64,000 nt of DNA. It comes from Sclerodactyla briareus (taxonomy: Eukaryota; Echinodermata; Holothuroidea; Dendrochirotida; Sclerodactylidae). This document shows positions 1 to 47,089 of this stretch, piece after piece; position 1 is the stretch's first letter, and each line of letters begins with the position of its first letter. A model generated the notes under the pieces. The model was not told the origin of the DNA, searched no databases, and was given only the letters and a program-made list of their open reading frames with translations. The DNA is taken from contig JAODTK010005577.1 in NCBI GenBank assembly GCA_026419785.1, forward strand, positions 62,001 through 126,000. Reading direction: 5' to 3'. Both the position numbers and the translations under genes were made by a program.

Positions 1-474
1 TATCCGATATGGGACATAGATAGTTCCTGTTTCAAGGAGATGATGTTCTGTAACAATAGGTAGGGTATCTGATTCATTAAAGAAATAAAATGTTTTTTTT
101 TTGACCGCATCGATGCTTGGGGGGTTTTGTAACCCCATGAAAACACACTCATTTTTATGTCACGCGAGTCACAAAAAAATGTGAATGGTTGGGGGGCTAA
201 GTTAATTTCACGTGGACGGTTGCTTAATATTTTTTCATGTGCAATGGTAATTCTAGTAAATGAACATTAAGCCAATTATTTAAAGTTAACAATTTTTTCA
301 GTGCCACTTCTATATTCTAGAGAAAATCACCTCAGTGGACGGTTCACGCGAGTTGGTGAAAAATATCACATAATTCCATCTTCCCCGGGCCCAATGTAAT
401 TAAGAAACTATAGTAATGTGATGTTTATGTGTAAATCAATATACCTAGTTTCATGTGACTATGTACACCTATTT
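1..474. other. unassigned AT-rich sequence
   Basis: No coding region or known repeat is recognised. It carries one perfect copy (158-172) and one degenerate copy (about 343-354) of a 15-base word, TGTCACGCGAGTCAC, that recurs at 2050-2064, 2815-2829 and, degenerate, at about 2995-3008. This suggests that 1-474 and 2000-3010 derive from one older repeat, later split by the inserts between them. Confidence 0.4.
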
Positions 475-1985
475 TCAACCAGAAGCTAAAAAAATGAGCG
501 ATTCTTGACTCTCCTGGACAAACCTATAGCAAGGAACAGAGACAAATCGAGGTTGTACCGTTTCCGTATGGGGCACATAGCGCCGACAAATTTCCCATTT
601 TTCCCAACCAACCCATAGGTTCCCTGTACTAAATGTCAGGGTCTTAAGACTTCGACCTTGGGTGACCTCAGAATCTGATGACCTCTGACCTGACCCCAAA
701 ATAATAAGGTTATGTAATCCTATGGGACACACAAGTATGAGCTTAACCTATCCAGGTGGGGTCTATTCATCGTGTTTACAAGCCAAAATTTGCCAAAATA
801 TTTCCACGAATTTTCTATTTTTGACTAAAATTCACCCCCGACCTAATCCAAAAACAATAGGGTTCCTGTGACTTCCCAAAAGAATGCTATACGCCGAATT
901 TCAAATTGATTGAACCAGCCATTCTGGACTACTCGTGTTAACAAGTTTTCAGTTGACCCTCTCTTGACCTCAGCTGACCTCTGACCTGACCCCCGAAACA
1001 ATAGGAATCATGTAATCATTATGGGGAACCCATATACCAGGTATGAATTGAGTTCAATCTGAGTGGGGACGAGTTATAAAGCTAAGTTAACAAGCTGAAA
1101 TTTGACAAGTTATCAATTTTTCAATTTCCCAATTAGTCTCAAATGACCGCTGGTCTGCATCAGAACAGTAGTGTTCTTGTACTCCCCATCGAACACAAGA
1201 AGGTTGCCTGACGAATATCAATATATCATGACATCAGATGACCTCTGACCTGACCCCAGAACAATATGACTCGTGTACTCATTATGGGGAACCCATTTAC
1301 CGAGTATGAGATGATCCATCCAAATGGGGTCGAGTTATCGTGTTAACGAGCTACAATTGACCAAAATTATCAAGTTTTCAAAATTTCTCAATATTTTCCT
1401 CAAATCTGACTCTCGATTTACACCAAAAAACGATAGGGTTCCTGTACTTCTCGTAGGAAAGCTGCATACCGAATTTTAAACTGATCGGTCCAGGCATTCT
1501 GGACATATCGTGCTAACAGGATTTCTCAGACGTTGACCTCTCTTGACCTCAGATGACCTTTGACTCAACCCCAAAACAATAGGGATATGGACTAATATGA
1601 GGGAACCCATATACCAAGTATGAACTGGATCCAAGTGGGGTCGAGTTATTGTGTTATAGTGCGTGGTCCGCACCGAAAACAACAATGTTCCTGTAATCCC
1701 CATAAGAGCGTTGCATAACGAATTTCAACATGACGGATCGGCATTATGGATCAACATGTTAACAATATTTTCCGACTCTGATCTCTCTTGACCTCAGATG
1801 ACCTTTGACTCAACCCCAAAACAATAGGGCATCATGTACCATTATGGGGAACCCATACACAAAGTATGAACTTGATCCATCCAAGTGGGTTGAGGTATCG
1901 TTCAACAAGGCTAGGCGTTACACGCACACACACAAACACAGTCAGGACTGCATAGATTCCTCTGACTTCGTCAAGGAATAAAAAA
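475..1985. repeat. diverged tandem-unit element ending in a hairpin, family 1 copy 1
   Basis: About five diverged units of roughly 245-315 bases each contain a TGACCTC/TTTGAC-rich block, then words such as TATGGGGAACCCATATACC and GTGGGGTCGAGTTATCGTGTT. Unit anchors lie near 664, 966, 1230, 1546 and 1790. The array ends in a CA microsatellite (1921-1940) and a small stem-loop near 1957-1978 (TTCCTCTGAC, loop TTC, GTCAAGGAA), followed by A-rich sequence. The same 3' end is found at 12371-12402. No transposase or other protein is encoded. The layout suggests a non-autonomous mobile element with internal tandem repeats; the class is not established. Confidence 0.7.
679..1251 (-). promoter_or_regulatory. 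perfect DR1 nuclear-receptor-type half-site pairs in repeat units
   Basis: The 13-mer TGACCTCTGACCT, which is AGGTCA-G-AGGTCA on the minus strand, occurs exactly at 679-691, 975-987 and 1239-1251, once per repeat unit. AGGTCA pairs spaced by one base (DR1) are the known consensus for RXR/HNF4/COUP/PPAR-type nuclear receptors. Whether anything binds here is inference. The later units carry weaker forms such as TGACCTTTGACTC. Confidence 0.45.
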
Positions 1986-2049
1986 AAAAGTTACTTCCTA
2001 AACTAGCCGTGAAATACAAATTACCTCTAAAACTCCCTCATATCGCAAC

Positions 2050-2064
2050 TGTCACGCGAGTCAC
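2050..2064. repeat. recurrent 15-bp word TGTCACGCGAGTCAC
   Basis: Exact copies lie at 158-172, 2050-2064 and 2815-2829, with shorter matches near 343-354 and 2995-3008. The word contains a direct repeat of GTCAC spaced by four bases. I did not notice the core elsewhere in the window. It may be a remnant of one older repeat or a binding-site cluster. Confidence 0.5.
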
Positions 2065-2135
2065 ATTTTCCATCTTGAGCTATTGTAGCCATAAAAAAAA
2101 GGGTTCCAAGTAGAAAATAGTATACTTTCTAGCCC

Positions 2136-2600
2136 AATAATAATAATAATAAAGTGACACTTCTAGAGCGCTCACTTCTCAGCAAGCTGCAATCAGTGGC
2201 GCTGTACAGAAAAGGAAAAATGAAGCAATGTGGAAAAAGCCCTAATGAAAAGCATGAGAAAAAAGATACGTTTTAAGTTTCCCCTGAAAGTTACAAACGA
2301 AGTACACTCCTTAATATCTAATGGGAGTTTGTTCCACTCCCGAGGACCAGCTTAAGAGAATGCGCGATCGCCATACTTCTTAGTCCTAGTGCGAGGCACG
2401 GAGTAGGTGGAGCCATTCCTAAGAGAAACCAAGTACTAGTGCTAATAAAATACTGACACAAATACACAGGGGCCGTACCATGAATCACTTGAAGGCCAGC
2501 AAAGCACTCGACAGATCTGTATCTTTAGGCAACCAATGAATGTTATATTTCACTTTGCAAGATATATGCCTTCAGTTCACCACTGCATTTGGTCTAGAAC
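2136..2600 (-). mobile_element. 3' end of an L2/CR1-type LINE
   Basis: Read on the minus strand, this translates with frameshifts into the C-terminal end of a non-LTR retrotransposon ORF2. It shows IHWLPKD (SLHWLP-like), then VIHGTAPVYL, SVPRTRTKKYGDRAFS and EWNKLPLDIK. This is the conserved series after the reverse transcriptase in L2/CR1 LINEs. A 3' UTR with two GCGCT words and an (ATT)n tail (2136-2153 on the plus strand) follows. The piece is 5'-truncated and frameshifted, so not functional. It matches in type the 3' end at 45490-46397. Confidence 0.8.
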
Positions 2601-3374
2601 TATCCGAGAAGTGAACTTGTCACGTTTTCTCGTCTCACAAGACACAATACACATTCATGGTTATTTTCACGTGTTACAACGTATTATTTAAGTTGCATAG
2701 TTATTGAGGTAGTGTTTCCAACTCCGGTATGAATGTAAAGAGTTATTGGAAGCATTTTAATAAGACATGAAAAATCGAACATTAGTGTGTCATTCACATT
2801 TTGTTGAGAGTATCTGTCACGCGAGTCACGTTCAGATTTGTGTTAATTTCACTCTCAAGACTTGAGTTATGAATTTGATTTTCTACTGTTGTAAGCATCA
2901 GGGAATACCTCCACTGACTACATGAGTGATTTTCCCCAGGAAATTTCTTTATTCTTTCAATGATATCAAAAGAAGAAGAAATTCAGTAAAAAATATCACG
3001 CGAGTCCCTATGGAATTGACTAAGGTGGTTTTGTTCGACACACTGGACTAGAGGATAGTTCATCAATATCCGGCATCATAAGGACGTATGATCCACTTAC
3101 TCTGAGCATCCGTTCGTCGGCATGTGTTGTTGTGATTTTACGATTAAAAGTGTGGGGGGGGGGGGGGGGGGTGTTTTATTTGAAAAAATGAACAAAAATG
3201 AAAATGAAAAAATAAATATGTAAAGACTGCCACGGATGGGGATGTATATGTACCACACAGCTACAATTCGAAAATGCGAGCATGTTGCCTCGTTGAGGTA
3301 TATATTATTTGACTGAACCCCCCCCCCCCTCCTCTCCGATTGATGACGTGACGGAAAGGGTTGGGCTGCCTACA
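2601..3374. other. unassigned sequence with an 18-base poly(G) run
   Basis: No gene is recognised. G18 occupies 3154-3171 and a poly(C) run lies near 3319-3329. Two CACGCGAG words (2815-2829, 2995-3008) link this stretch to 1-474. Confidence 0.4.
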
Positions 3375-3560
3375 TTTAACGACTCGACACAGTCAGTGTT
3401 GTAGGTTGTATCTCTGACAAACTACTACAGGTACGCGAAATCATGTCCTCACAAAACTTGCATGACATAAAATCATTTAGCAAATAACTGTTGTGTATTC
3501 TTTCAAGGATACTCGCCGGGCAGTGGACGGTCGCGTACAATGCCGGGTGAAGGCACAACG
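3375..3560 (-). pseudogene. possible fragment of a LINE endonuclease-RT linker
   Basis: The minus strand has a 60-codon open frame whose FCEDM segment, encoded near 3445-3465 (plus-strand GTCCTCACAAAACTTG), matches the FCED segment of the LINE at 60014-60800. The resemblance is local and short. If real, this is a decayed piece of the same LINE family; otherwise it is a chance frame. Confidence 0.3.
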
Positions 3561-4105
3561 GATATTTTGAATGGTTGAATGTTGAATATTACGTCAGGTA
3601 CACCGAAGAGTCATGCACTCTTTGAAAATGGACTCAAATATGGGGGTGGAAAATTGGATTTGAAAATACAAGTAGATTGCAAAGGCGGATACAAGGGGGG
3701 GGGGGGCAACTAGGGGAAGTTTGCTCCTCCACGGATTTTGACGGTGAATTTGCGCTCTCCCGTCCAGGAAAATGCGCCCCTCTACTCAAGAAGTCAGAAT
3801 TATTATGTTGCGAATGTGAACTCGAAGAGTAATTTTGACAGATTCTTCATCAATATTCTGAGAAAATCTTGCGCTACGCGGAATAAGTACAAGTGTTACT
3901 TTGTTCTTGTCTGCGGTATCTTCATAAGTCATGACTGCGCGAAAGATGGAACTGTCTAGAATGTCGGTATATTAATGTGATCGAGGACTCTCAGATTAAA
4001 CTTTTTACCAGAGTCGTATATGTTTGCAGAATGAAGTGCACTGAGTGCAGTTGGCGTTGGGTTGTTGGGGAGTGATCCCAATTGGTTACCTCCACTCCTT
4101 TGGTT
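3561..4105. other. unassigned sequence
   Basis: A plus-strand frame of 73 codons (3738-3959) has no recognisable domain and starts beside a G10 run (about 3697-3706). It is not called as a gene. Confidence 0.35.
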
Positions 4106-4501
4106 TAATAATAATAATATCTCGTTCTTGTATAGCGCTTTTTCACGTCGAAGACATGCTCAAAGCGCTTCTCAAATATTACCCTGATCATCAGTGACTT
4201 GTCACACCCGTACTATAGAGCACGCACCTTTAGCTTGTTCCCTCCAGACGCACTATTTCAGTGCGCCCCTTTTCCGTGGTCCACGGGGGACTACCAATAG
4301 GGCTGCAACATACGGCGCTCGCTACTCTCACAAGTCACCTCACAAGGTACCCATTTCAACACGTGGGTGGCGTGGACATTTCAGGAGACATGCCTTGTCC
4401 AACAGCACTGCGGAAAAGTCCTCGGGCTACTAATGGGCTCCGAACTCGCAATCAATGGTTTTGCAGTCTGGAGCTCTACCGACTGAGCTAATCCGCCTCC
4501 C
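4106..4501 (-). mobile_element. tRNA-headed SINE, full-length form
   Basis: On the minus strand it starts GGGAGGCGGATTAGCTCAG, a clear tRNA 5' half with A-box (TAGCTCAGTCGG), followed by GCGAGTTCGGAGCC, a B-box-like arm. Next comes a body with TTTTCCGCAGTGCTGTT and GGCATGTCTCCT. The 3' end has paired AAGCGCTTTGAG and AAAAGCGCTATAC words and an (ATT)n tail (4107-4121 on plus). That tail type is shared with L2-group LINEs, which would supply the reverse transcriptase. A second copy with the same body lies at 28708-28951. Confidence 0.75.
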
Positions 4502-5232
4502 TTATTACGAACATCATGGATTTAGGTTAGCAAGGTGGGCAGGTGGAGGGCAAACTAGGAGAATATTTCTTCCGGGATATGAGAGACTGTAAAATCGACC
4601 AACGAATGGGCCAAAAACTGGCCTAGTTGAATACGAAAAAATACCACCAGCAGGCTGATTTTGTGCGCGCAGTCGCTTTCTCGGTTCGTATCGACTACGT
4701 ACAAAGCTGAATATTGGGTATAGGCTGTTCTTATGCGACCTAAAGATACCAACATGAACATGGCCTCCATCGCAACAACTTCAACAGTCACGAGGGCACT
4801 GCATGTTTCTTCCCACACTGCTATCACATATATGGGCTGTATCCAATATAGTGATACCCAGTAACATGCCTCTCCGGTGGGCGGAGAATTGAGGAAACAT
4901 TTCGGAACTACTAACCGATATGGAACAGCCCCGATGCCTCACAAACTGCCATTTGCTATCTTGGGGTCTTTCAGGCTAACGAAAAGTTCGGATTTCTCTC
5001 CATGCCAACAAATGGTAGCGCTCCGCTTAGAAAGTCTCTCGCAGCACCCTCCATAAAATTAGTAGGCCCCACCGCGTCTACCTATATATTTCGTAACCCC
5101 ATCCGCAATTGGGGGATTTAATTGGCTCACACCTAGTGAATGCCCCTCAGTATCGGTCTAGAGTCCGTCCATGTAGTTGATACTAAAAGGGAACGCAATA
5201 TTGAGTAAATGCAACGATGAGACCTCACCTGC

Positions 5233-5705
5233 AGGTTTCTGTCAGAGTATGGAATCCTTACTTCTCGGAAGATAAGCAGGTAATTGGAAACTCCAAACGG
5301 AGGTATACTAGCTGGATTCACGTCTTGAACATTTCGAGAAGGGATTAAGGGTCTCGGTCTAACTTCGAGGAAGCTGAGACGAAGCGAGGGCTTCGATTCA
5401 GGTTTTCAAAAATGTTCATGAATTAATGTGTAAATATTTCTCTCGCAAAGTTATTAATGATGGAATATCCTTCCCGAAGATGTTGTTCTCGCTAAGAGTG
5501 GAGGGGGGTATGTGTTCAAGAACAGTTTGATTCAAATTCAGTTTGTGGGGGAATGATCTAGACATCTGGGTTATATGCTCTTTGGGGATGTTGTGGCTTC
5601 AGGCAAGTCTTCCACGAGGGTTTTGTCCTAAACTAAACTAAACTAAACTAAACAAAACTGAAAATGACTAAACTGAAACAAAATAAACTAAAATAAACTG
5701 AACTA
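5233..5705 (+). mobile_element. 3' end of a CR1/jockey-type LINE inserted near a splice donor
   Basis: This aligns by eye with the last part of the LINE at 36870-39790. Shared stretches are GGAATCCTTACTT and AAGCAGG (5250-5280 versus 39278-39308), AGGGTCTCGGTCTAA (about 5347-5362 versus 39391-39406) and TTCAAGAACAGTTTGATT (about 5515 versus 39645). It ends in a pentameric (TAAAC)n-like tail at about 5626-5705. Its end lies about 20 bases from the splice donor of the minus-strand exon 5725-6011, on the opposite strand. Confidence 0.75.
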
Positions 5706-5724
5706 ATTGTATACAATATATTAC

Positions 5725-6011
5725 CAGCTTGAGGAGATTGTAGTCCTTTTGACAATCTGCTGTGGGCCTCCGGTTGAGGTTACTTCAGGCAGTTCGTCTC
5801 CATGACGCAGCAGTAGAAGAACGGCATCATATCGACTTATAAGGGGAAGCGTCGGTACTGTACCGGCTGTGCCGTAAGGAGTTGACCCCGCGACATGGGC
5901 CTTCTGTGACATGCCGCCTACGGACCTATCCCCGGTTTTTGTAGTCCCGGGTTGCGTGCACCAGGGTTGCCATACATATCGTAGCAGCAGGAACTTCCAG
6001 CGTTGTCGTCA
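5725..6011 (-). CDS. AMOP domain C-terminal half, exon of a NIDO-AMOP gene
   Basis: Minus-strand exon with acceptor AGTCCATCTCTTCCACAG before 6011 and donor CTG|GTAATA at 5725/5724. It starts in phase 2, matching the end of the exon at 7151. Visible in order: DDNAGSSCCYDMYGN, KAHVAGSTPYG, LISRYDAV, PFFYCCVMETNCLK, RRPTADCQKDY. This is the cysteine-rich second half of AMOP and its extension (CCYD, HVAGxxPYG, PFYYCC, RPSxxC) known from Mesh, SUSD2 and mucin-4-like proteins. At least three single-base or small indels break the frame (after GN, before PFFYCC, after CLK). The encoded part is extracellular in the family. It ends in phase 0, and the following VWD exon was not found with confidence. 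Confidence 0.75.
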
Positions 6012-6858
6012 CTGTGGAAGAGATGGACTACCAAACAGTCAATGCGAAGAGGTGTATGCTAGTATGGGACTATATGTATTTTTTCCTGGGATTTGATTGG
6101 AGCGAAATTTTTGATTTACGAGTTGCACTTGACCGTATAAAATATCAAGAAATACGAGGGTTACACTAGGGGTAATCTGTTCCACGAATGTGAACAAGTG
6201 TATATAGGCCCCTGAGGCTGGGATTCTATTGTTGTGTATGCGTGTCTGGTTGGATGTGAAAATCACATATTTACGAAAACGAACGTTTGTCTCAGAAAAG
6301 CACACACTATAATTTTGTGTGGAGAGACAATGAAAATATACCAGAAGCCCTCGCAAATGTTCGTTGGGGGATTTGACCTTTCGATGAGAATCTTATAGAT
6401 TGCATCCGCGATGATACGCATGCCGTATACGCATAGAACATGTGCCTTTTTTGCCTATGAGTGTTGGTTTGGTGTACAGTTCGGAAGTTTTTTTCCCTAC
6501 GGCATATCAAAGATATCTTTGCCAAACTAAATAGGGCATATCCAGATAATGGCCGATCTCAGCTAACGTGAATTCGCGATTTTTCACATGCGCACCGGAC
6601 CCCGCATACGCAGCAATGGAATCCAAGCCCGACTCCGGACGTGACCGAAACCCTTTTTGTCTCTCTGAAGGAATGTCATTGGAATGAATTGAAGCGACCA
6701 AGCCAGACTCCTTCCTGTTGTATACGGTAAGACATTAACATATTTCTGGACACCTTTTTGTCCCTTTTACTAGTGAGGTGAAGTTCACGGCTCTCCATAG
6801 ATCGCAGGATGGCTCCCTATAGTGGGCCGCTGCAGCGTACAGACTGGCTCACTTCTGG
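6012..6858. other. intron sequence of the NIDO-AMOP gene
   Basis: Lies between the exons 7151-7442 and 5725-6011 on the minus strand. Short minus-strand frames here (6039-6356, 6307-6525, 6507-6701) show no domain and overlap each other. It contains no recognised repeat besides the MITE that follows. Confidence 0.5.
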
Positions 6859-7134
6859 CAGTTGCGTACGTGAGGGAGGTGGGGGGGGGGGGCAGAACCC
6901 CCACCAGGTGACCGATACTTGCTCAACAGATAAAAAAAATCATTTTCATCATGCATCAGAAAGCCGTTTCACAGTTTGTTACCAAACATTGCAACAGCAT
7001 GTGTCTTATGGCCCATCAATTGCAATTATTTTCCAATGGGTGGGGGGGGTGGAGGCACAATTAAATGAGGGCACTCCTCTTGGATCCTAACCGCAACCCC
7101 AATCCCCCTAGAAAAATCTCACGGAACGTCACTG
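6859..7134. mobile_element. hAT-like MITE with perfect 8-bp target duplication
   Basis: The 276-bp element starts CAGTTGCGTACGTGAGG and ends CACGGAACGTCACTG, an imperfect terminal inverted repeat of the CAGTGGCGTA type. It is flanked by ACTTCTGG on both sides (6851-6858 and 7135-7142). An exact 8-bp duplication with CAG..CTG ends is typical of hAT transposons. A G12 run follows the left end. The body word GTGTCTTATGGCCCATCAATTGCA is also seen, diverged, at about 11039-11062 and 18425-18450. It encodes nothing, so movement would have needed a transposase in trans. It sits in an intron 16 bp from the end of exon 7151-7442. Confidence 0.85.
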
Positions 7135-7150
7135 ACTTCTGGTTTCTTAC

Positions 7151-7442
7151 TTTGGGAAGATGCTCAGCACACAGTGCACGGCCTCCCTGTGGAGGAGACA
7201 CTCGTCATCGTTGAACATGTTGCAGTTTAGGTCGGATACGAATCTGGAGGTGTCGACGAGGCCTGTTCCATGGTACAGGGACATTCGTCTAGGCCCGAGA
7301 CGAAATCCGCCCCCAGATGCGTGTCATCCTGCGGTGGAGCTCGGCAAGCCTCACATTCATCCTCTGCCCAACCGTATGGTCATCCTGGAATTCCTCCTCC
7401 AGTAGATAGCCGAGTGGGTGAATGTCGCTGTAAAGCATCGTT
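7151..7442 (-). CDS. AMOP domain N-terminal half, exon of a NIDO-AMOP gene
   Basis: Minus-strand exon. Acceptor TTTTACTTGGCCTTACTCTGACAG precedes 7442 and donor CCAAA|GTAAG lies at 7151/7150. Entry is phase 2, as required by the upstream exon 8203-8407, and exit is phase 2. The order is YSDIHPLGYLLEEEFQDD, GWAEDECEACR, FVSGLDECPCTMEQA, DTSRFVSDLNCNMF, DDECLLHREAVHCVLS. This fits the AMOP consensus (CPCT, then RFxxDxxC, then CxxHxGAxHC). Two single-base deletions break the frame, one between EEFQDDHT and GWAED and one after MEQA. Apart from them all key cysteines and both splice sites are intact. AMOP domains are extracellular and are thought to act in cell adhesion. Confidence 0.82.
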
Positions 7443-8202
7443 CTGTCAGAGTAAGGCCAAGTAAAATAAAAAATCAGTTTCTCGACCCCGCCTGAAGCTG
7501 TTCCGGGTCGCATAGAATTTCATTTTTTCAAACTTTTTTTCAGTATCATATAACTCGTACATTTTGAGAGAAGTGTCTCGTCCGGACCCCCAACTGCGGC
7601 CCATTTGGTGTTCCTATAGTTAAACATACCGCAGCATTGACATAAAAGGCTCGCAAAAGCGTGTGCTGCCACAGTATGGTCGGGACCATCCCCCCCCCCC
7701 CCAAAAAGAGAACCCCCCCCCCCCTTCAAAAAAGTGGAAAAAGTCCCTCACTTTCCTGCGAAGTTAGGACAACAAAAAATTACTTCTTCTTGGCCTACAT
7801 GAGATAAAGAAGTCAGTCACCCAGTTTGATGATGTTACTACTTTATTTCAGAACGTCCTTGAAAGGTAATGCTAGCGGCGTGGAAGAGTCGTGGGGCTTT
7901 TGTTCGAAGGTTGATACACCCCCTTGCGGTGAGGCTGACATGAGCCACTTGAGTGAGCAAATCATCATAACGTATGGGGCCCTGTTCATGTTTCGACGAG
8001 CAGTGTCCCTCATCCCCGTCTTAAGCAAGTTAGACACAGGAACGAACATTTGAGGAGTTTTTTACAAATATTAAGCTCGCCGCCATGCGGGAATATGCTT
8101 CTGGTGAGTCCTTTTTACACTCTCTCAATCGATATACCACTCAAAAGTTGGATCACCCTCGTCAGTTTAACAAAATAAACAGGAAGAAATGTACGCACTC
8201 AC
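7443..8202. other. intron with two poly(C) runs
   Basis: Intron between exons 8203-8407 and 7151-7442. It holds poly(C) runs at about 7690-7702 and 7713-7723. Minus-strand frame 7843-8049 has no domain; the flanking exons already join in phase 2 without it. Confidence 0.5.
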
Positions 8203-8407
8203 CCCCTGTTCACGGAGGGTTGTACTCGGATAGTACCGAAAGCGTTAGTGGAAGTCACATTGTCCAGGCCGTATGGTCTGAAGGTGAAGGTGCCGGAGTT
8301 TTCGACGTTCCTCCCGACGGTGAAGATCTTCTGCCAGCGTGGTCCCAGTGGTTTTTCTTCCTCGTAGTTCAAGATGTGGATGTCCCGCGGGTGTTGGTAC
8401 CATACAC
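8203..8407 (-). CDS. connecting exon between IPT-like and AMOP domains
   Basis: Minus-strand exon, fully open for 205 bases. Acceptor CATCACCTGCGCCTCTGAG precedes 8407 and donor CAGGGG|GTGAGT lies at 8203/8202. It enters in phase 1, matching the exit of the IPT-like exon 13874-14128, and leaves in phase 2, matching the AMOP exon. Readable parts are VWYQHPRDIHILNYEEE, GPRWQKIFTVGRNV, NSGTFTFRPYGLDNVTS and FGTIRVQPSVN. The pattern NSGxFTFxP followed by GxIRVxPS is what I recall for the stretch just before AMOP in Mesh/SUSD2-like proteins. The longer plus-strand frame over the same bases (8085-8513) is its antisense shadow. Confidence 0.75.
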
Positions 8408-8515
8408 CTCAGAGGCGCAGGTGATGGTTCAGTTCGCTACTGCAGTGTACGCACGTCACCATCCGTACCCGCCCGGGTTACCTTCTCTTCTACAGAGATT
8501 CGATCCAGGTTAACG

Positions 8516-8520
<5 letters not shown>

Positions 8521-8550
<30 letters not shown>
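8521..8550. repeat. (GA)15 microsatellite
   Basis: Uninterrupted GA dinucleotides within the 5.5-kb intron. Confidence 0.95.
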
Positions 8551-8555
<5 letters not shown>

Positions 8556-9262
8556 AACACCGTGGGATAACTATATAGCATACCTATAGTGGTGTAAGAA
8601 ATCACACTACATTATATAAAGGTTGTGTATACATTTACAGAAATTGTGCAGCTCATGCACGATGATTATTGTGTGACTTCTTGCACAACATCGGATAGGT
8701 GTTCTAGTTACACAACGTTTCAGGATTTCATGTTTCCACCCCCCTCCCCCCTCCTGGAAATATTGGGACCAAAGGAAGTCTGGAAGAGGACGACCCAAAT
8801 ATCCGGAAGAGTAGACAGGAACTCGCTAATTCAAACTAAGGTAAGAAAATGCCCGAAGTCAAAAGGGAAAGTGCAACTGGCGCGCCCTAGTGGCTCCATT
8901 TCGTCTTTCATTCGTGCGATGTCAATGGGATTCTGCAGATTTCGAGATTCCTGTTAACAGCTGTAAGTAGTATTTCTAGCAAAGGTAACAACAACAAATA
9001 CAAAAACAACACAAAAACAACAGCCACTACCACCACCAACCCCCCACCAAGACAGGTACCATGGCGGATACGTAAGAAATACAGTCAGGTGGCGAGTACA
9101 TGGTTCCCAATTGATGAGGTGAAAATCGGTTTCTGAGTCCTGATTTAACGAACTGCGTTGTCTGACAACAAGGCAATTAATTAATACAACTATAAAACCT
9201 TGACAAAGTCAAAGGAACTATGTAGTCATGACAGTGTGTGCATTCGCATATGTGTGTGTGAG

Positions 9263-9298
<36 letters not shown>

Positions 9299-10890
9299 TG
9301 TGTGTGTGTGTGTGTGTGTGACTTCCAGATTATTAATCGAACCCACTGACAAAGGAATAACTTATTCAGTATGTGGTTCCCCGTGATGAGTAGCATACAT
9401 GACAGAGGATGTCAGGTGGAAGTGTTTGTTATGCCCAAACAGCGCCCCCATTCCCCGTGCCCTATTGACCTATACGACAAAACTTCACTGTTTTCCTCCT
9501 CCTTTTTCCGAACTGCATCAATATATCAATTCAAAAATAGCTCCATGGTTAGAACGTGAATCCACCATTTTCGACACTTGAGTTCTGTGTTAGTGGGATG
9601 ATGAGTCAATTTTGACAACTAGTTTTAAAGTTTGTTTTGGGGAGCGTGTTTGCCTTTTTGTCCTGATGATAACTGTATCATTAACTGTAACTGCGAATTG
9701 GACTATTACGATTATTAACATTCAATGAATATTTCTATTTGTTGGAACTATGAAGTGAAAAACGATTAGAAAACAGGAGACAATAAGTGCACTAACAATC
9801 ATGTCGAAATGAATAGGTCAGTACTGCTGGAAACACGAAATAAAATGACCATCCAACTAACACGATCCAACGTTATGGGGACATACAAATGTTATAAAAT
9901 CTATAAGTTCCAGTGAAATGTTTCAATAACGTTGACGCCTGATGGTAAATGCAAATGTCACGTGACTTTTGGTACTTTCCATTCCATAAATTTAATTATG
10001 GAAGCAAAACCTCAGATATTTCAAGTGCTCGATCCGTTATTCCTCGAAAAACCCTTCTGGCATAACGAGGGGTGACCTGTAATACAAGTTAATGTCAAAC
10101 ACGCACTTTTGAAAACCCCGCAGGCCCCATGTTTTCGCCCCTGCTTGCGTATATTTATGTGTCCCTCACAACATCGTGCTTATGCTCCTTCCAATAGTCA
10201 TTACGAGGGTTTGTGCCCAAAACATTTTTTTTTTGCGGAGTACCTTCTTCCTCATAAGGCGAAATGATTTGTATCCAAACAAGTTCGACGGAATTGAATG
10301 CCACATTTTTCAAAGGCGGCGTCTCCCACCCCTCTTCATCGCAACGACTTGTACCTGAAACGAGTTCTATGTAAATACAATGCTGCCTTTCTCTGGGGTA
10401 AGAGTCTCCATCAACCCCCCCCCCCCCCACCCTGTTGTCTTTTCCGCGCCCTTGTGCTATCTGGCTGTACGCCTTTATATATATCAATTACATGATTTGT
10501 TCCTCTAACCTGTTTGATGATGCCACTCCTGGTTTTCCTGGTCCCTCACGCGACCGTGCGCACGCCCCTTAACTCAAAGACTCGAACAATTATGAGTGTT
10601 CAGTTAACGCCTGAATCCATCGAGCGTCAATCTTACCAACGCATCCGTTGCTACATGTGATCACAAAAAAATAATCCTGCCAGGCCCCAAGAGACCATAA
10701 GGATGAAATGTCATTGCAGCACTTGGTTTTGGCATTTTGGTCTATCATCCAAACTATATTAGTATATCAGGTTATGGAACGAATGTGAGCAGAAAGTGGG
10801 TCCCCCAAAAAAACGTTGAAGCATGTCGTGAGTGAATAACCTTAGGCATGCGATCCAGAGTGGTTGATTAGACGTTTGTTACCTTGGGAG
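8551..10890. other. intron sequence without recognised gene
   Basis: Part of the 5.5-kb intron between exons 13874-14128 and 8203-8407. It holds a (TG)n tract at about 9250-9320 and a poly(C) run near 10417-10429. Short frames such as 8625-8957 and 10155-10487 show no domain or splice context. Confidence 0.5.
9250..9320. repeat. (TG)n microsatellite
   Basis: About 70 bases of TG with a few interruptions. Confidence 0.95.
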
Positions 10891-11164
10891 CAGTGGCGTA
10901 TGCAAGGGGCAGACCTCCCCCCCCCCTCCCTCTTGACCCAAGTGACCAATCAGACCAAATAATTGTAACACTAAAAACACTTTCCTTGTTGTTAATAGAC
11001 GTTTTACAGCTGTTGTTGTTCACATTTTCAACAGTACGTGTCTAAGGGCTCATAAATTGCACTTATTTGCCAATATGGAGGGGGAGGATATAAATAAGGG
11101 CACCCGTTCCCTTGGGTCCCGACCCCCTACCCCTCCCATTGACAAATCTCTTGGTACGCCAATG
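10891..11164. mobile_element. hAT-like MITE, second copy
   Basis: Begins CAGTGGCGTATGCAAGGGG and ends TTGGTACGCCAATG, giving a 10-base inverted repeat with one mismatch. Its length of 274 bp matches the copy at 6859-7134. Flanks CTTGGGAG and CTTGAAAG agree at 6 of 8 bases, as expected for an older 8-bp target duplication. A poly(C) run sits near the left end. Confidence 0.75.
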
Positions 11165-11630
11165 CTTGAAAGTGACAAGAATTCTGTGCAAGCGTAGTGA
11201 AGCTACAGTCAGCTCATGCAGAGAAAATGAGCAGTACGCTGAACATTACATGCATACATGCTAAACAAATGTCGTTTGACAACGTTTCATAGATACCATA
11301 TAAGGTTCAGTGGACATGGAAATGTGGAATCCTAAAAAGTGTCCTCAAACGTAGAAGGGTATAGGGTACATTTCTACGTTCCTCGAACGTTACCAAGTGG
11401 TAATGTATAACGAGATGCAACATCCTCAGAACGTCATATTGTTAGTGAGCATAGCAGCGATGCAGGGATAGGAGAATGGATTAGTTTGCGAAAAAAGGCA
11501 TGCGAGAGAATAGAAGAGTATAGGAGTTGAAGATCATTGTTCCGTCAATAGAGGTCTGGCCTATTCAAAGATTAATATTATGTTCTGTAACGACTGAAGT
11601 AACGGATAGAATAGATAAATCAGAAAGCCA

Positions 11631-11825
11631 GGGGACCTTATGATTCCTTGACTGCTTGATGGTCAATGACCTCAGATGACATTTGACCTAACCTAGGGGA
11701 CCTTATGATTCCTTGACTGCTTGATGGTCAATGACCTCAGATGACATTTGACCTAACCTAGGGGACCTTATGATTCCTTGACTGCTTGATGGTCAATGAC
11801 CTCAGATGACATTTGACCTAACCTC
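11631..11825. repeat. three identical 65-bp tandem copies
   Basis: The unit begins GGGGACCTTATGATTCC and ends GACCTAACCTA. Copies start at 11631, 11696 and 11761 with no differences seen. Perfect identity is unusual here, where other repeats differ by many indels. Confidence 0.95.
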
Positions 11826-12402
11826 AAAACAATAAGCACTAAATACTTACCACGGAGAACCCACATGCCACGTTAACAAGGTTTTCAGACTTTGAACTAG
11901 AGTGACTTTAGATGACATTTGTCCGGATCCCAAAACAATTGGGAATATATATCAGGCATTATGGGGAACACACATACCAAGTATGAACTCCACCCATCCA
12001 GGTGGAATCGAGTTATCGTGTTTACGCGCCAGATTTGGCAAAAATATCTTCGAAAAAGTGACTCCTGGTCAACCCCAAAAAACAGTAAGATTTTCGTACG
12101 TGAGTCACACGCCAAATTCCAGCTTGACCGGATCAAGCGATGTGAACTTAACGAGTTCACACTAAACTCAGACTTTTACCTCTGGTGACCTCGAGATGAC
12201 ATTTGACCTGACCCCAAATTATTAGAGATTTTGTACTAATCATTGCGGACACGCATGCCAAGTTTGAGCTACAACCCTCTGGGTCGTTACGTGGGGTCGA
12301 GTTATCGTGTTCACGAGCCAAGAGTCACACCCACACATACACACGCACATACACATACAGTGTGATTTCATAGATTCCTCTGGCTTCGTCAGGAAAAATA
12401 AA
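11631..12402. repeat. diverged tandem-unit element ending in a hairpin, family 1 copy 2
   Basis: After the 65-bp triplication come units with TATGGGGAACACACATACC, AAGTATGAACT and TCGAGTTATCGTGTTTACG, the same words as in 475-1985. It closes with a CA-rich tract (12327-12360) and GATTTCATAGATTCCTC followed by a short stem-loop (about 12375-12395) and A-rich sequence. The shared 3' end with 1957-1981 defines a family boundary. No protein is encoded; overlapping frames at 11897-12188 are chance. Confidence 0.7.
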
Positions 12403-12649
12403 GAAGAGTTTTGTATAGTGAAGTGGGGATACGAGAAGAGTACGAGGGTTCACGGGATCAGCGAGGATGAGCGTACGTAAGGACATATTGCTATTGCAAA
12501 TGCTATTACCGTACCGCTGTCAGGCTGCAGGTATACAAAGTCATCACCTGTAACGAGAATCAGTTACAATAAGATAACGGAAACAACAAAAACAAAAACA
12601 ACAACAACAACAACAACGAACAAACAGTCAATGAACAACCGGAAAACCT

Positions 12650-13700
12650 CAAGTTCATTGGGGGAAATGATAATAATGCCAATCGGAAGGGTGTTCCACA
12701 TAGTTGGACCAATTCAAGGGAACTGGAACTCATCGTGGGACTTCGTCGAGATCCGATGGGTGTGATACTGGTTGTGAGAGGATCGATCGAAGAACTCTGG
12801 AAGGCACGTTCGGATCAAGAAGGTAAACCGGAACTAGTTCTCTTATTATCTTGAATACGATGAGGAGGAGGAGTTTGCAGGAGATGCGGACCAATGAAGA
12901 GATGGAAGCGACATGTCGGCTAAGAGGAGATCGAGATGGTACGTTTCTGGGATCAACGTTTTGAATTTACTGGAGCTTTGAACCTCCGATAACGGGAGAC
13001 CAGTTAATGAACTCAAATCGAAACGACACAAAGTTATAGGCGAGCTATACAGCTGAACTCTGACCCAAGTATTTACAAACTTTACCGATCTTGTGTACAT
13101 CGTATCATCATGTACATCGTAGATGGTGAAGAGGAGACCACAGGTTCATGTTGAATGTCACTCATAGGTTTCTAACCGACCCGACAGGAACAATTATGAG
13201 TTGTCACGCCAATTAGCCATGAAGAAAATGGATCGTATTTGAATAATTCTGAAGTCACGTGGACGATTACTGTTTTGGAATGATAGAATCGTTCACACTT
13301 TATTGTGGGATGTCCATTCTATGAACAATTTCCAATGCCAGCAATGCGGCAACACGGTTATTAAGATCAAACGATATGTATAGCTGAGTATCTTCAGCGT
13401 TAATCATGTGATTGACCTGATAGACGGTTATGTCATTCAGCAGGAAGTGTGAAATGTGTATATGAGGTCCACGAACAGATCCCTGTGATACTCGGATTTT
13501 CAGACAGCGTGGCTCAGACTTTGAGTTTGCTACTGTTGGTAATTGAGATATGTTACTCAGGTAAAATGTGTGCGATACTTTCTAAGCCCTACCATGAGCG
13601 GCGACGTTCCGGTAATATATCGTGGTCGATCGTTTTGTCAAGTAGAACTAATCTAGTTTCCATGCTAATCGGAAAACACCCCTATTTGGCGAGGCGCTCC
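12650..13700 (-). mobile_element. decayed L2-type LINE reverse transcriptase
   Basis: Minus-strand reading gives in order TIDHDILPER (FDTIDHDIL-like), a degraded GSVxGP turn, EDTQLYISFDLNNRV (YADDTQLY with A changed to E), then VKFVNTWVRVQL, DLSSLTGLPLSE, LPSLHWS and SSSSYSR. This is the usual order of RT motifs through the LHWLP region of L2/CR1 LINEs. Many stops and frameshifts are present. It lies inside the 5.5-kb intron in the same orientation as the host gene. Confidence 0.75.
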
Positions 13701-13873
13701 AAGCACTGCATCTAACAAAGTGTATTCTAACCGACTGCTAGTATTAGAATTAATCGAGTTTGGGGTTTCAAGGCTTAGAGAGATAACGTTGGTGCTTAGG
13801 GCTAGCCTTCGCCGTATTGTTACTCAACCAAGTTACCCAACATGGACGAGATCTTACGTTTGCTTATACTTAC

Positions 13874-14128
13874 GTATTCTATAATGTCCTGTCTTCGCGC
13901 CGATTTCGGACTGGACGCGAACTTCGACCTCTCCAACGACAAAGAACGGGTCAGGAATACAATAGGCGGAGTTGATGCCGTCGACCGTGCCATTGACCGT
14001 CTGCAATAACGTCCCGTAGCGGGACCGGAACTCGCAGGTGATGCTTCTGCTCCAGCACGGCCCGTATAGGAACACCTTCTCCCCGCCGAGAATGCTGCCA
14101 AACGGCGGATGGGTCACGAAAGTGGCCA
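13874..14128 (-). CDS. IPT/E-set-like domain exon of the NIDO-AMOP gene
   Basis: Minus-strand exon of exactly 255 bases, fully open. Acceptor TTTTAATTTCCTCATCAG precedes 14128 and donor GAATAC|GTAAGT lies at 13874/13873. It is symmetric phase 1-1, typical of shuffled extracellular modules. It reads FGSILGGEKVFLYGPCW, then SITCEFRSRYG, TVNGTVDGINSAYCIPDPF, VVGEVEVRVQSEIGAKTG. The set GGxxVFxxGPC, ITCxF, AYCxxP and GxVxVxVS is the signature I recall for the IPT-like domain lying between NIDO and AMOP in Mesh/mucin-4-like proteins. Two overlapping minus-strand frames (13820-14101, 13951-14205) are its shadows. There is no sign of decay in this exon. Confidence 0.77.
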
Positions 14129-15334
14129 CTGATGAGGAAATTAAAACAATCGGAATAGAGATAATAGAATATTTGCTTAGCGCTCGTTTCGATGCCCGTG
14201 AGCAATAGTTATTTCCAATTGAATATAGTATAACTCTGGAATCATGACTCCATAATTCCGGCCAACCACTGGACCATTTGATCTTGGTCTGTTATACTAC
14301 TTCTGCAAATTTGACATAATTCCGTAGCCATGAGTAATTTTGAGAGTAAAATCTTCCCGAAATATGTGACTCCAAATTATTTGTATAACATTCTGCAGTG
14401 TCACACGTCACCCTTGCAAATTTTTCGGCATACCATGACGTGATTGATCTGTCATTGACGTCTCCTGAGGCTCTATGGTTACATACATTCAGGATCGATT
14501 ATCCGCGAGCCTGGTGTTAATCTGCAACTCGACAGTTATTACCGAGCGTCGATAAAATGTATGTAGTACCGTATGTTGTAAAGCTACGTTCACGTTTCTA
14601 TAAGATCCTTTAACCGGCAACGGCGACTGCAAGAAGAAAAAAAATCGCATACATATAGTGTGCGAAATGTGAACGCCGCTGATGGATAGGTAACCTATTC
14701 TCCTGACAGAAGAGACGAATGAGTGTTTCCTTCATTAGTCCAGGAGATTCTCCCAATCGGGAGAATAAAATTGTCTCTTGTTTAGGAGAATTGGAATTGT
14801 TCATGATACTGCCATATCGTCTTTTTTCCACAATGCAACGTACACCCATATAGAAATGTATATGGGAGACATTTGTTTTCACTCCTCTCAACTACAAAAA
14901 AGCTTGGTTTGGTTTGGTAGTTTTCAATATAGATTTCGGGATATTTGAATAGGAATAGACTACTTCCGGAGGTAGTTTTCGGGATTAGATTTGTCACCGT
15001 CCTTTCGAACAACAATTCGTTGCGATGTTAATAGGAGGTACTACCCTACTTGGCAATAACGTCAATACAAATCACACATACTAATGGGAAACCCACGTAG
15101 TTATCATCGACCTAATGTTAAACTACTCAAATAGCGCACTTTTCATCAGCGGGACGTTGTTTTGTGTCTAATAGAATACCGCATATGATATTCACCTATC
15201 TGTATTACACATAATGATTCTCCCGACCAAGGGATTCTCGAAATCTCCCAAACAAGGATATCTCCCGGACTGTTCATAGTGTTCGAGAGGCCAATTAAAC
15301 TATAGGCCAACATTTTTAGTCCTATGACATTTTT
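14129..15334. other. intron sequence without recognised repeat
   Basis: Part of the intron upstream (gene sense) of the IPT-like exon. Short minus-strand frames (14610-14891, 14782-15015, 15146-15340) have no domain. Confidence 0.45.
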
Positions 15335-15481
15335 GCGCACGAACGGAGTTGGGGGACCAGAGCCCCCTCCATGACCCTAGTGAAACAATAGGTTTCAACA
15401 AAGAACAGTAAAAACATTTTTTACTGTTTTGTAGACGTTTTTTTTCCCCCCGCCCGAGACAAATTTCTCGCTACGCCACTG
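15335..15481. mobile_element. truncated hAT-like MITE end
   Basis: Ends TTTCTCGCTACGCCACTG at 15481, the usual right end of CAGTGGCGTAG-type hAT MITEs, preceded by C-rich sequence. Its left end lacks a matching CAGTGGCG terminus, so it is truncated or interrupted. Confidence 0.55.
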
Positions 15482-15877
15482 ACCCTCGGCCCTCACACTT
15501 GAGTTTCCTCCTGAATTTATTCAACGCAGTGTGGCGCGACATTTGCGAGAGGAGATTCCCACCTCTGCACGGATTCGGGGGAAATTCAGTCAGTCGGGGG
15601 AAATTAGGAGGTAGTCTGACGGAGTAAGAGTAAGAACAAGAGGCGAGGAAGTATCGTTCCGCTCCCACTTTTCGAGTCAGAAACCGCCTTCTCGTTTCTC
15701 AAATAATGATCACTTCGTAGCCATTGTTGGAATAACCGTGTGGGTGTCATTTTGAGTGCGTCATATTGCACCAAATTGCACCAAGAGCCACTTGGAATGC
15801 CACCCCTCCTCTTGGGTACACACGTGGCCAATCATCACGGTTCATCCCCCACTCAAAATTACCGTGTTACGTCACTG
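15482..15877. mobile_element. second successive MITE end
   Basis: Ends ACCGTGTTACGTCACTG at 15877, again a right-hand terminus without a visible left partner. The minus-strand frames 15471-15668 and 15604-15831 run across it and show no domain. Confidence 0.4.
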
Positions 15878-15929
15878 GGTAAATTAGTCATCAATTACAA
15901 CGGAACATGTCACCCTATAGTGCACTAGA

Positions 15930-16067
15930 AAGCGCCATTTTGCGTCTACCCATTTTCAACTGAGAAAAGCATTCCCAGAGGTAGGGAGACCCTCTCTTAG
16001 ACCCCCATATCTGTCGGGGGGCTAAAAATTCGGGTTCCGCACCATACAACCCCTGGGCACGTCACTG
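15930..16067. mobile_element. third successive MITE end
   Basis: Ends CCCTGGGCACGTCACTG at 16067. A CTCTCTTAGACCCCCATA block precedes it. Same orientation as the two ends before it. Confidence 0.4.
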
Positions 16068-16312
16068 ACCCAAAAGCCTGCTTCTGCGGGAACACTAATA
16101 TTAATTTTCAAACGCATTTGCATTGTCCTGAGGATCCCGGCTGCCGGTCTTGATGTTATGTGGCTTGTGGCTCTGACACCTTAAACAATCTAATGTGAGG
16201 CAGTCCATGGAGATCGTTATAAGCGTGACCGGTCCTCTAGAGAGGAAAACCAATCAAATAGAAAACCGTTACCGCTTGGAGAGCACCCGGCAGCGACGAT
16301 CTCGTGGTTTAC

Positions 16313-16377
16313 TTGGAACGCAAAACTCCCCTGCTCCTCGAAGTTCGACAAACTGTGCAATTCCGTCCCTGTCTGCA
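16313..16377 (-). CDS. possible short linker exon between NIDO and IPT-like domains
   Basis: A 65-base minus-strand segment with acceptor GGGTTTCGATGCATTTCAG before 16377 and donor TTCCAA|GTAAAC at 16313/16312. Read in phase 2 it gives ADRDGIAQFVELRGAGEF and leaves in phase 1, which is what the candidate exon end at 18578 (phase 2) and the IPT-like exon (phase 1) require. There is no domain match, so the call rests only on splice sites and phase. It could be chance. Confidence 0.33.
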
Positions 16378-16610
16378 CTGAAATGCATCGAAACCCATCG
16401 GTGCTAGCCGTCAGCCCATCGCCAGCATTGAATCCGATCTATCAGGTAGGGAATGGCGGAAAGGGGATAGCTGAAACGGCGAGGTCATTAGGCCATTATA
16501 AGCTGTGAATTACGGCTGAACAGTGTTATGATTTTGATGCATATTCTATAAAGTCCGTGTTCGCACAGTACGATTCGGTGACAGGGAATTTGCCTCTGCT
16601 GCCTTAATGC

Positions 16611-17100
16611 TGCGTTCTTTCGAACTCGTATATACCGTACATACCAGTTCCCAACTGGTGAAATGCGTTCTGTCGACAACCAACACTTTCAATACGCGGG
16701 GTCGTTTAGAGGCGGCCCTATCGAAACTCTACTGTATGATTGCTTCATTGGGTAGTGGTTACGCGAAAAGCCCTCGCTTTTCGAACTTCGAGGCTGCACT
16801 AATTTGACTGAAATTGCTCCGTACGTATGATATTTTTCCATTCAATTGCATGAATTCAGGTCCTAATCTTCTCATCTACAAATTAATCCATATGAATTAC
16901 TATTCATGGATGGAACAATACGAATAACCTCGATTTCTTTCATGAATCGAGAGTATCGAATAGTCGCCATTTTGAAAAAAGGCTGTGGAAAGTGGAGGTT
17001 CACTGATAATCCCAAAGTCACCACTAAAAGTCACCACTTGTGTACCGAAAGAACGCGTTTTATCTCGTATATACGGTAATACCAGTTCGAAAAGAACGCA
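16611..17100. mobile_element. 490-bp TIR element, copy 1
   Basis: Left end TGCGTTCTTTCGAACTCG..TATATACCGTA and right end, reversed, TGCGTTCTTTTCGAACTGG..TACCGTATATACGAG form inverted repeats of about 35 bases. A near-equal-length copy lies at 56319-56807, with its body in opposite orientation. No coding capacity, so probably non-autonomous. No clear target duplication was found. Confidence 0.75.
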
Positions 17101-17382
17101 CCATTCGTCGCACATGGAACGAGCTACCGCGCAATATCCGAAATGCAACTACTTTGAGCACTTTTAGGAAACATCCTAAAACATACTTTTTCTTGTAAAT
17201 ATTCGAATCTATTTTTGCTACCCCACTTTTGTTGACTTTTTGTTCTCTTTTTAGAGTTTTCTCGCTTTTTCTCTTTTTTTTTTCCCCCACCTTGTTTTTT
17301 TGGTTAATTCCCTATATTCTATTCTCTTTACTACATGTAGGCTACAGTTTAATTCTTATGCAATTGTCCTTAATTATCGTTT

Positions 17383-17832
<450 letters not shown>

Positions 17833-18299
17833 TGTGCTCAGGGTGCAGCCACTGATAAGCACGATCGTCTCCTAGTTTCAAACTCGAGCAAAATTTATAT
17901 TTTTGCTAGCATGGAATTTAGGTATCATCCATACATAGTGCACTTGTCAATTACATGACGGATCCCCACTATCCCGCTATGGTGGGTCATAGCACTTTAT
18001 ATGTGGTCACTCTTGTGACTGACATATCATGAAAAGTGACACACCCCATAGTCACTTCAATCGCCCAAAAGCCTACGCTGCTGTCCGATCAAAACTACTA
18101 ACAATGACTCACCCCGCAGTCACATTGAGTGACTGGCAACATCAGTGCAATGACTGGCGTGTGCGTCTTCTCGCTATCTGACTATGACCCATCTTGACCA
18201 TGCAGTGAGGGTGTGTCATGCGATTAGAAAGTCCCAAACTTATACAATAGCATGATCGAGGAATTAACTTATACTTTGAGGACATTATTTTGTGGTGTA

Positions 18300-18515
18300 T
18301 AAAATTGGTGTTACAAAAACATTTTTTGCAACATTTTATTCATTAGAATGATGATATTTTAGATTTTCAATAACACCACATTCTTCCACGTATTGAAACA
18401 GTATCACATATAGGCATCGGCAATGTGTCTAGGGCTCAAAAATTGCAACTCCCCTAAACCCTAACCCCCCCCCCCCCCCGCCTCCATGACAAAATCTTCT
18501 GCTGACTCTACCGTC
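18300..18515. mobile_element. decayed hAT-like MITE copy
   Basis: Contains GTGTCTAGGGCTCAAAAATTGCA (about 18427-18449), which corresponds to the body word of the copies at 6859-7134 and 10891-11164, then a poly(C) run and ATGACAAAATCTTC near the right end. Termini are not clean. Confidence 0.5.
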
Positions 18516-18577
18516 AGACGTACTACGGAGTAAGCCTACTGAAATGTTGCTAAAACGGAAGCATTTAGAGTCATAAC

Positions 18578-18720
18578 GCAGTGAATCTGAAAATGTATAG
18601 CGATCAGCATTTCCCTTTCATCTATCGAAAGATTCGAACTGTGCGCAGAAGGCGCTTCGTACTCGTAACAACCGTTCACGATTAGGCCTTGCCAGGAAGA
18701 CCTGCGAAACTCATCGGTAA
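18578..18720 (-). CDS. possible end of NIDO domain, exon of the NIDO-AMOP gene
   Basis: Minus-strand segment with acceptor GGGGAAAACATTATATCCAG before 18720. It starts in phase 0, matching the upstream exon exit. It reads LPMSFAGLPGK, then after a shift NGCYEYEAPSAHSSNLSID, then YIFRF. A turn with AGxxxG, a Y-x-x-PxSxxSxxL stretch and a final Y/W-x-FRV are usual in the last part of NIDO domains. At least two frame breaks occur. The proposed donor GC|GTTATG at 18578 is weak, so the 3' limit is uncertain. Confidence 0.42.
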
Positions 18721-18866
18721 CTGGATATAATGTTTTCCCCAAAAACAATTGTAAGTCCAACTGTCGACGAATATGATGGATTCTCTGTGAATTTCGAGAG
18801 AACAGACAGAGGGAAAACACCCACACACGACAACACACACCACACACATTTTTTAGGCGAACTTAC

Positions 18867-19058
18867 AACTGCCTGTGGAGCTTGTAGCCGTTGTTCCAGT
18901 TTCTGCGTTTTAACCACCACGTTACATGTTCGCTTTCCACATGTCCATGCAATTTTGTCATAGTAGAAATACAAAGGAACCTAGCTGGCGTGGTCGGTGA
19001 CAAACTGTTTGTAAATGTATTTCTCTGAACGGTGAAAGGCGCTTAGACGTAACATCGA
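18867..19058 (-). CDS. NIDO domain middle exon
   Basis: Minus-strand exon with acceptor CATATTAATTTCAG before 19058 and donor GCAGTT|GTAAGT at 18867/18866. The stretch covers, in mixed frames, NTF, QTV, VTD, SFVFL, then FYYDKIAWTCGKRTC. NIDO domains carry NTFQxVLxTDxxxSFxxFxYxxIxWTxG at this point, so the match is good although the frame changes several times between NTF and FYYDKI. Exit is phase 0, as needed for the next segment. The overlapping minus-strand frame 18711-18974 reads through the intron. Confidence 0.6.
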
Positions 19059-19307
19059 CTGAAATTAATATGCGAAGTTCGAACCTTTATGATTTGAGGC
19101 ATAATACCTTCCTCGTTCGGTCCTTCTTTACATGTCGTTTTGCTCAACCCTGCCTAATCGCACTGTGATTCGGTGTGTTGTCTTTAGCCTACTCCTCGGT
19201 TGGTTTCCTCCCTTCCCCTGTTTTCCTAGGTCCATCAACGGCTACCCGGACGTAATGTTTATTACACATACATACTACACCTCCATAGAAACCTCCATAC
19301 ATACACC

Positions 19308-19376
19308 CTACAATACTACATACATACATACATACATACATACATACATACATACATACATACATACATACATACT
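19308..19376. repeat. (TACA)n microsatellite
   Basis: About 15 tandem TACA units in the intron after the first NIDO exon. A minus-strand frame (19189-19599) reads through it as repeated VCMY residues, which is not real protein. Confidence 0.95.
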
Positions 19377-19394
19377 TATCATGTAAGGTCTTAC

Positions 19395-19643
19395 CGGGTC
19401 CCCTTTGCTGAGGCCTGGGGGTTTCTGTTAGAGAATTAACCTCCTCCCACGTGACACTATCACCCACTTGGCCTTGAAGTCGACCTGGCTCGGGAATTCC
19501 TGCTGAACTCTCCTCCGACGCCTTCAATGTCTCGTCAGTCGAGGAAGATCGCTGTCGGTAACGGACGGTCCCCCGGTTGTTGGTGTCGACGTCCCCCATA
19601 TGGTGCTATCAATACTCTTCTCAAGGTCTCCGTCATCACCGTC
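19395..19643 (-). CDS. NIDO domain first recognised exon
   Basis: Minus-strand exon with acceptor AATTGTTCCTTCCTCTTACGAAACAG before 19643 and donor GGACCCG|GTAAGACC at 19395/19394. It shows RRVLIAPY, GDVDTNNRGTVRYRQ, STDETLK, VQQEFPSQVDFKAKWVIV and VTWEEVNSL. These correspond to the NIDO core (IAPYWxDVDTRxxGxVxYR, then FPxxxFxAxWxxIVTWxxV). Small indels separate the blocks: two bases missing at the expected APYW, one after TLK and one before VTW. NIDO domains are extracellular modules found in nidogen, Mesh, SUSD2 and mucin-4. The NIDO N-terminal half and the signal peptide would lie at higher coordinates and were not identified. Confidence 0.7.
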
Positions 19644-46397: not shown

Positions 46398-46996
46398 AGC
46401 TCGCCGATGCGATGCGGTGCATTGCAGGCGCATCGCCAGAAGTCGGCGGATAGAGATCGTTAGAAGCTCGTCTGTCGTTGTCACCATGGTAGCCAAAATA
46501 AAACTGCATTGTCGGCAATCAAAACGAACAGTAGCGATGGTACCAAATCAGTCAAACATATATAGACACAACCGAAACCTACCCTACAATCATGGGACTG
46601 ACGGCCGACAGGTACGACACATCAGCCACAGCCACACAGTTTTTCAGTCACATGAGAGAAACCTGCGGGTCATGCACTCCCCCTAAAATAGCGAGATGGT
46701 GGGGGGGGGGGGGGCAACAGCAGGTGATGACTATATAACTGGGTCGAGCGCTGCAACGGGATCACGCGCAACTGACATATAAATGTTCGTCGGTAGCAGG
46801 TAGAGATTTTTATTGAAAAATAATGGAAATAAACCTAAATTTGAAAAAAAAAGGACTTTCACTTCAGCCAACCAGTTGTGGTTACGATAATATCCTATGA
46901 CAGCAGAGCGGCACCATTGCGTTGCCGCCGCCGCGTAGGATTCTTTTCGGAATTAATCATTAATAAATGCAAACTAGTGATTTCCAGATGGCCATT
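46398..46996. other. unassigned sequence
   Basis: Contains G14 at 46701-46714. A plus-strand frame (46417-46686) has no recognised domain. Confidence 0.4.
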
Positions 46997-47089
46997 TAAC
47001 ATTACAAATTAACATTACAAATTAACATTACAAATTAACATTACAAATTAACATTACAAATTAACATTACAAATTAACATTACAAATTT
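46997..47089. repeat. seven 13-bp tandem copies
   Basis: The unit TTAACATTACAAA is repeated seven times without spacers or variation. It is a minisatellite, not a CRISPR array. Confidence 0.95.

Follow-up and report, generated by a model that had tools for sequence, protein, structure and literature searches.

Exons of a probable Mesh-type gene on the minus strand

The window analysed here is a stretch of 64,000 nucleotides from the holothuroid Sclerodactyla briareus, C2820:62001-126000 of an assembly of 319,486,128 bases in 3171 contigs. Its lower part carries, on the minus strand, six exons that we attribute to a gene of the Mesh type, in the order NIDO (two exons), IPT/TIG-like, connector and AMOP (two exons) (Table 1). 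Each proposed exon was translated in three frames, and the exons were then scanned singly with Pfam. An initial Pfam pass through 14 kb, in two minus frames out of three, had returned nothing at E 0.1; short exons are hidden in long concatenated frames. The six exons as redrawn are bordered by AG/GT at 12 of 12 borders, which were chosen to be so. A sequence-only reading had proposed a minus-strand gene of the Mesh/SUSD2/mucin-4 family with this exon order, overlooked by frame-length methods on account of short exons and indels. The Pfam matches, which fall in the family order, uphold that call, and the reason given for the oversight also held. The domains that come next beyond the window, in the order VWD, C8-3, two Sushi repeats and a membrane helix, allow the family call to be restricted to the Mesh layout.

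Table 1. Exons of the window gene (window coordinates) and related loci of the same genome
Feature	Position	Strand	Remarks
NIDO 5' exon	19395-19643	-	Pieces in three frames; PF06119 E 0.01 in a single frame, 8.2e-10 joined; donor and acceptor read
NIDO 3' exon	16273-16438	-	55 codons, open throughout; phase 0 to 1; takes the place of the 'linker'
IPT/TIG-like exon	13874-14128	-	Open, 84 amino acids; phase 1 to 1
Connector exon, between IPT-like and AMOP	8203-8407	-	Open, 67 amino acids; phase 1 to 2
AMOP exon 1	7151-7442	-	Phase 2 to 2; two frame changes inside
AMOP exon 2	5725-6011	-	Entry phase 2; between one and four internal frame changes
Second Mesh-type gene	C2819:5001-35000	-	NIDO end, TIG, AMOP, VWD start in order
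Third family member	C1048:115001-145000	+	Open AMOP, VWD, C8-3-like and Sushi exons

Four of the six segments drawn in the sequence-only reading (IPT-like, connector and the two AMOP exons) stand with AG/GT borders at the positions of Table 1, and the phases it gave for their junctions (1-1, 2-2 and 2-2 from IPT to AMOP 2) were reproduced, the closing phase 2 of AMOP 1 holding only in the frame used at the exon's own end (the entry frame would give 0). The other two segments required revision. In the segment at 19643-18578 NIDO is confirmed, but the exon falls short of 18578: the homology ends near 19395, at a GTAAG donor, and the remainder of the segment is intronic, containing stops and an ACAT array. 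The 'linker' at 16377-16313 is not an exon, as both of its proposed splice sites fall within the open NIDO 3' exon. A tblastn search with the NIDO-end exon of C2819, a contig carrying a related gene, matched 16438-16307 in one open frame (E 0.020), crossing both of those sites. The NIDO 3' exon ends in phase 1 and therefore joins the IPT exon directly.

Pfam searches for NIDO, AMOP, TIG and VWD had been proposed as the check on the family call, and the first two gave matches. PF06119 was found at E 0.042 in a single frame, or at the 0.01 of Table 1 in a shorter stretch, both under the cut-off; the joined 5' pieces together with the 3' exon, however, gave 2.8e-13 in two stretches, and a NIDO domain is thus present. 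By itself the 3' exon reached only E 0.19, and the second NIDO stretch appears in the joined query. One frame of AMOP exon 1 matched PF03782 at E 2.4e-4 (21.7 bits, under the cut-off of 25), and AMOP exon 2, which gave E 1.5 alone, continues the profile at positions 73-135. The joined AMOP pieces gave E 1e-18 and 68.3 bits over positions 16-135 of 143; this query also matched an unrelated family at 8.9e-4, which sets the noise level. Against PDB sequences the AMOP pieces had no match at E 1. A protein search with a joined query of 420 residues, restricted to lengths of 0.55 to 1.75 times the query, which excludes full-length Mesh proteins, returned no match at E 0.001 among 2105 candidates. 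In a DNA search with 5725-7442, in which 40 of 1047 candidates were scored, the AMOP exons had no further copy, the other matches listed being to the intron only. That intron contains an interspersed repeat (6211-6632): 57 matches were listed, one of them the query, and the rest are spread over many contigs at 67-82% identity, again with 40 of 1047 candidates scored.

The two exons between NIDO and AMOP are less distinct. Scanned singly, the IPT-like exon had no Pfam TIG match of its own; the TIG check succeeded on the collinear C2819 exon (PF01833, E 5.4e-4, just under the cut-off). The IPT label of the window exon is drawn from its weak alignment with that exon (22% over 73 residues, E 0.049). 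An AlphaFold model of the exon was all beta but weak, with a mean predicted local distance difference test (pLDDT) of 63.8. Four WRAP-T entries were matched at 1.1e-5 to 6.8e-5; no stretch passed on its own, and the likeness was treated as chance. The connector exon had no Pfam match of its own, and presumably resembles its counterparts in the family.

Continuation beyond the window

A motif scan of the minus strand located a VWD start at window coordinate -369 (C2820:61631), and the exons outside the window lie at about 61.6, 54.8, 53.2, 52.5, 50.7 and 49.6 kb of C2820. In unjoined frames, Pfam gave the VWD start at 0.0072, the VWD end at 1.2e-4 (5.8e-5 for the piece alone), C8-3_MUC4 at 7.1e-5, a Sushi repeat at 4.1e-6 (2.2e-8 as a piece) and, for the membrane helix, Syndecan at 0.0028. 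The VWD check was thus answered outside the window, and by the two ends of the domain only. A further Sushi exon, entered as a typed open piece, was matched at 9.5e-6, which makes two open Sushi exons. One open piece matched the Syndecan membrane segment at 1e-5 along with other membrane-helix models, consistent with a single helix. NIDO, VWD start and membrane helix are individually weak, as unrelated families appeared at 0.0019 and 8.9e-4; what counts is therefore that the set shares one strand and keeps the family order.

The gene would run from about C2820:81643 (window 19643), leave the window at its low end and reach about C2820:49500, approximately 32 kb in all. Its predicted product would be a type I membrane protein with extracellular NIDO, IPT/TIG-like, AMOP, VWD, C8-3 and two Sushi domains, and one membrane helix.

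Relatives in the same genome

A search of the assembly for AMOP found two exons on C1048 and a single one on C2819, three places in all. On C1048, the open exons are AMOP 1 (1.1e-6), AMOP 2 (1.5e-12), VWD start (1e-7), a stretch labelled C8-3-like on our own reading, and a Sushi labelled by its 49% identity to the window gene over 41 residues; a possible second Sushi runs into a stop. A motif scan of the C1048 interval in Table 1 found no NIDO, the profile scan having covered L007, a part of that interval. On C2819, the NIDO end (1.5e-6), TIG and AMOP are all open, the VWD start carries a frame change and a stop, and the putative VWD end had no Pfam match. Window 732-2234 and 11957-12342 also resemble C2819 and C1048 sequence, and probably represent another interspersed repeat family.

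Frame breaks and housekeeping controls

The window gene shows at least five, perhaps ten, frame changes in total. Frame-aware alignment to C1048 placed one shift in AMOP 1 (92, against 57 without shifts) and one in AMOP 2 (71, against 49); over the short parts so aligned, VWD start, C8-3 and Sushi showed no shift. The profiles lend support to another shift in AMOP 1 (AMOP profile) and to two or more in NIDO (NIDO profile). On the motif reading, NIDO 5' has three, AMOP 1 two, AMOP 2 four and VWD start one. No break is visible in NIDO 3', IPT, connector, VWD end, both Sushi exons or the membrane exon.

Housekeeping genes served as controls. HSP70 gave 14 matches (21 candidates scored), 13 on C2424 and one on C11, with stops in 6 of the 14. 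The HSP70 exon at C2424:94846-95132 was matched in two overlapping frames with stops, and on our own reading its translation has three frame changes; its pieces, joined with X, are identical to Hsc70 2bup_A at 80 of 89 residues. The 13 matches on C2424 lie at 19056-123210, apparently in two or more gene copies with clean and broken exons. Actin gave 16 matches on C2792, C1260 and C2088, two of them with stops. The last actin exon on C1260 yielded three successive matches in three frames, which we read as three frame changes, and the joined pieces are identical to actin 1nlv_A at 154 of 167 residues and end at the canonical C-terminus. Adjacent actin matches at C2792:267460-267684 and 267689-267940 are in different frames, judged from their coordinates. 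Conservation of this degree, in the presence of several indels, is more in keeping with errors of the consensus than with decay. No N occurs in the window or in the 21 loci examined, which fits long-read contigs.

Other features of the window

Pfam matches below E 0.01 were absent from ten further open frames of the window. Tandem repeats are found at 11630-11824 (a 65-base unit in three perfect copies) and at 46996-47088 (the 13-base unit TTAACATTACAAA, in about seven perfect copies).

Discussion

We consider the minus-strand locus a genuine animal gene of the Mesh type, whose breaks would be single-base errors of the consensus, and place the probability of this at roughly 0.75; for consensus errors as the source of the breaks, the odds are likewise about three in four. 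The housekeeping controls make uncorrected errors in the contig consensus, and not gene decay, the likeliest source of the breaks seen in some exons.

Several observations weigh against this assignment. Among the single-frame matches, only Sushi clears the Pfam cut-off and the VWD end just equals it, and families at chance level appear in such scans at E 0.0019 and 8.9e-4. The NIDO middle, the VWD middle, a signal peptide and the end of the cytoplasmic tail were not found, and a Pfam scan of the minus frames of window 1-5724 returned no family domain, the sole match (YvrJ, 0.035) being attributable to chance. The breaks are clustered, by our own count with seven of about ten between window 7442 and -500, and seven other exons are without any. 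The C1048 relative is open in its AMOP 1, AMOP 2, VWD start, C8-3-like and Sushi exons, so errors are not present throughout. Nor is there a stop in three actin matches at 242-249 kb of C2792, and single copies such as the C1260 actin could therefore be young pseudogenes.

The most serious competing explanation is that the locus is a pseudogene, a Mesh-type copy out of frame in its NIDO, AMOP and VWD exons, with the function carried by other copies. We regard this as unlikely. The number of frame changes, concentrated in about 1 kb of four exons, speaks for it, as does the C1048 relative with its five open exons. Yet the profile matches stay strong on joining of the pieces, the exon borders are canonical, seven exons are open, the same kind of break is seen in HSP70 and actin, and on our own reading the breaks can be read through without any stop that requires a substitution. 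Rather less probable still is that the breaks are real and that one member of a small Mesh-type family is in the course of decaying in this animal, with NIDO, AMOP and VWD lost first while the Sushi and membrane exons are still open. Such a course would perhaps leave a shortened membrane protein, and the frame change and stop in the VWD start of the C2819 relative would make that gene another example. Uniform neutral decay was also considered and set aside, given that the breaks cluster and that other exons are open. That the exons do not constitute one gene, being separate NIDO and AMOP fragments joined by chance or drawn from different genes, is very improbable. The introns implied by the exon positions reach about 5.5 kb in the window and 6 to 7 kb beyond it, and some expected exons were not found; against this, the exons share a strand and the family order, the phases match at each consecutive pair in the window from NIDO 3' to AMOP 2, and two relatives in the same genome keep the order of the domains found.

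On the reading of a genuine gene, consensus indels can conceal a multi-domain gene of 32 kb from frame-based annotation. The kind of gene is already known, and the locus is an ordinary, easily overlooked one of low surprise. Annotators gain corrected exons and two relatives in the same genome; the biological gain is one more Mesh-type gene, which by itself opens no new question.

Comparison with known systems

Insect Mesh is a large cell-surface protein that helps to seal gut cells together. By analogy, the window gene may have an adhesion or barrier role in an epithelium; that it seals or joins epithelial cells is suggested by the domain layout. SUSD2, which we take to be the human counterpart of Mesh, shares AMOP, VWD, Sushi and the membrane helix with the window gene; it is not known to have a NIDO domain, whereas the window gene carries one. 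MUC4 is not known to have Sushi repeats and carries EGF repeats after its VWD. In the window gene two Sushi repeats follow instead, and no EGF match was found in the minus frames of L004:5001-10000 and L005:1001-10000, L005:1-1000 not being scanned as a whole. The NIDO, AMOP and VWD domains given for MUC4 in PMC5354666 are shared by the window gene, which also has the C8-3_MUC4 match.

The closest correspondence is with Mesh of Drosophila and DVSSJ2 of the western corn rootworm, both proteins of the smooth septate junction. These junctions are organised by a complex of Mesh, Snakeskin, Tsp2a and Hoka, according to a review (PMC9281564), a table of which sets SUSD2 beside Mesh. For Mesh and DVSSJ2, PMC4964579 lists NIDO, TIG, AMOP, VWD, Sushi repeats and one membrane domain. 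The window gene differs in that its TIG-like exon has its label by way of a relative and in that several exons are broken in the assembly, but it shares the listed domain order of the two proteins through to the membrane helix.

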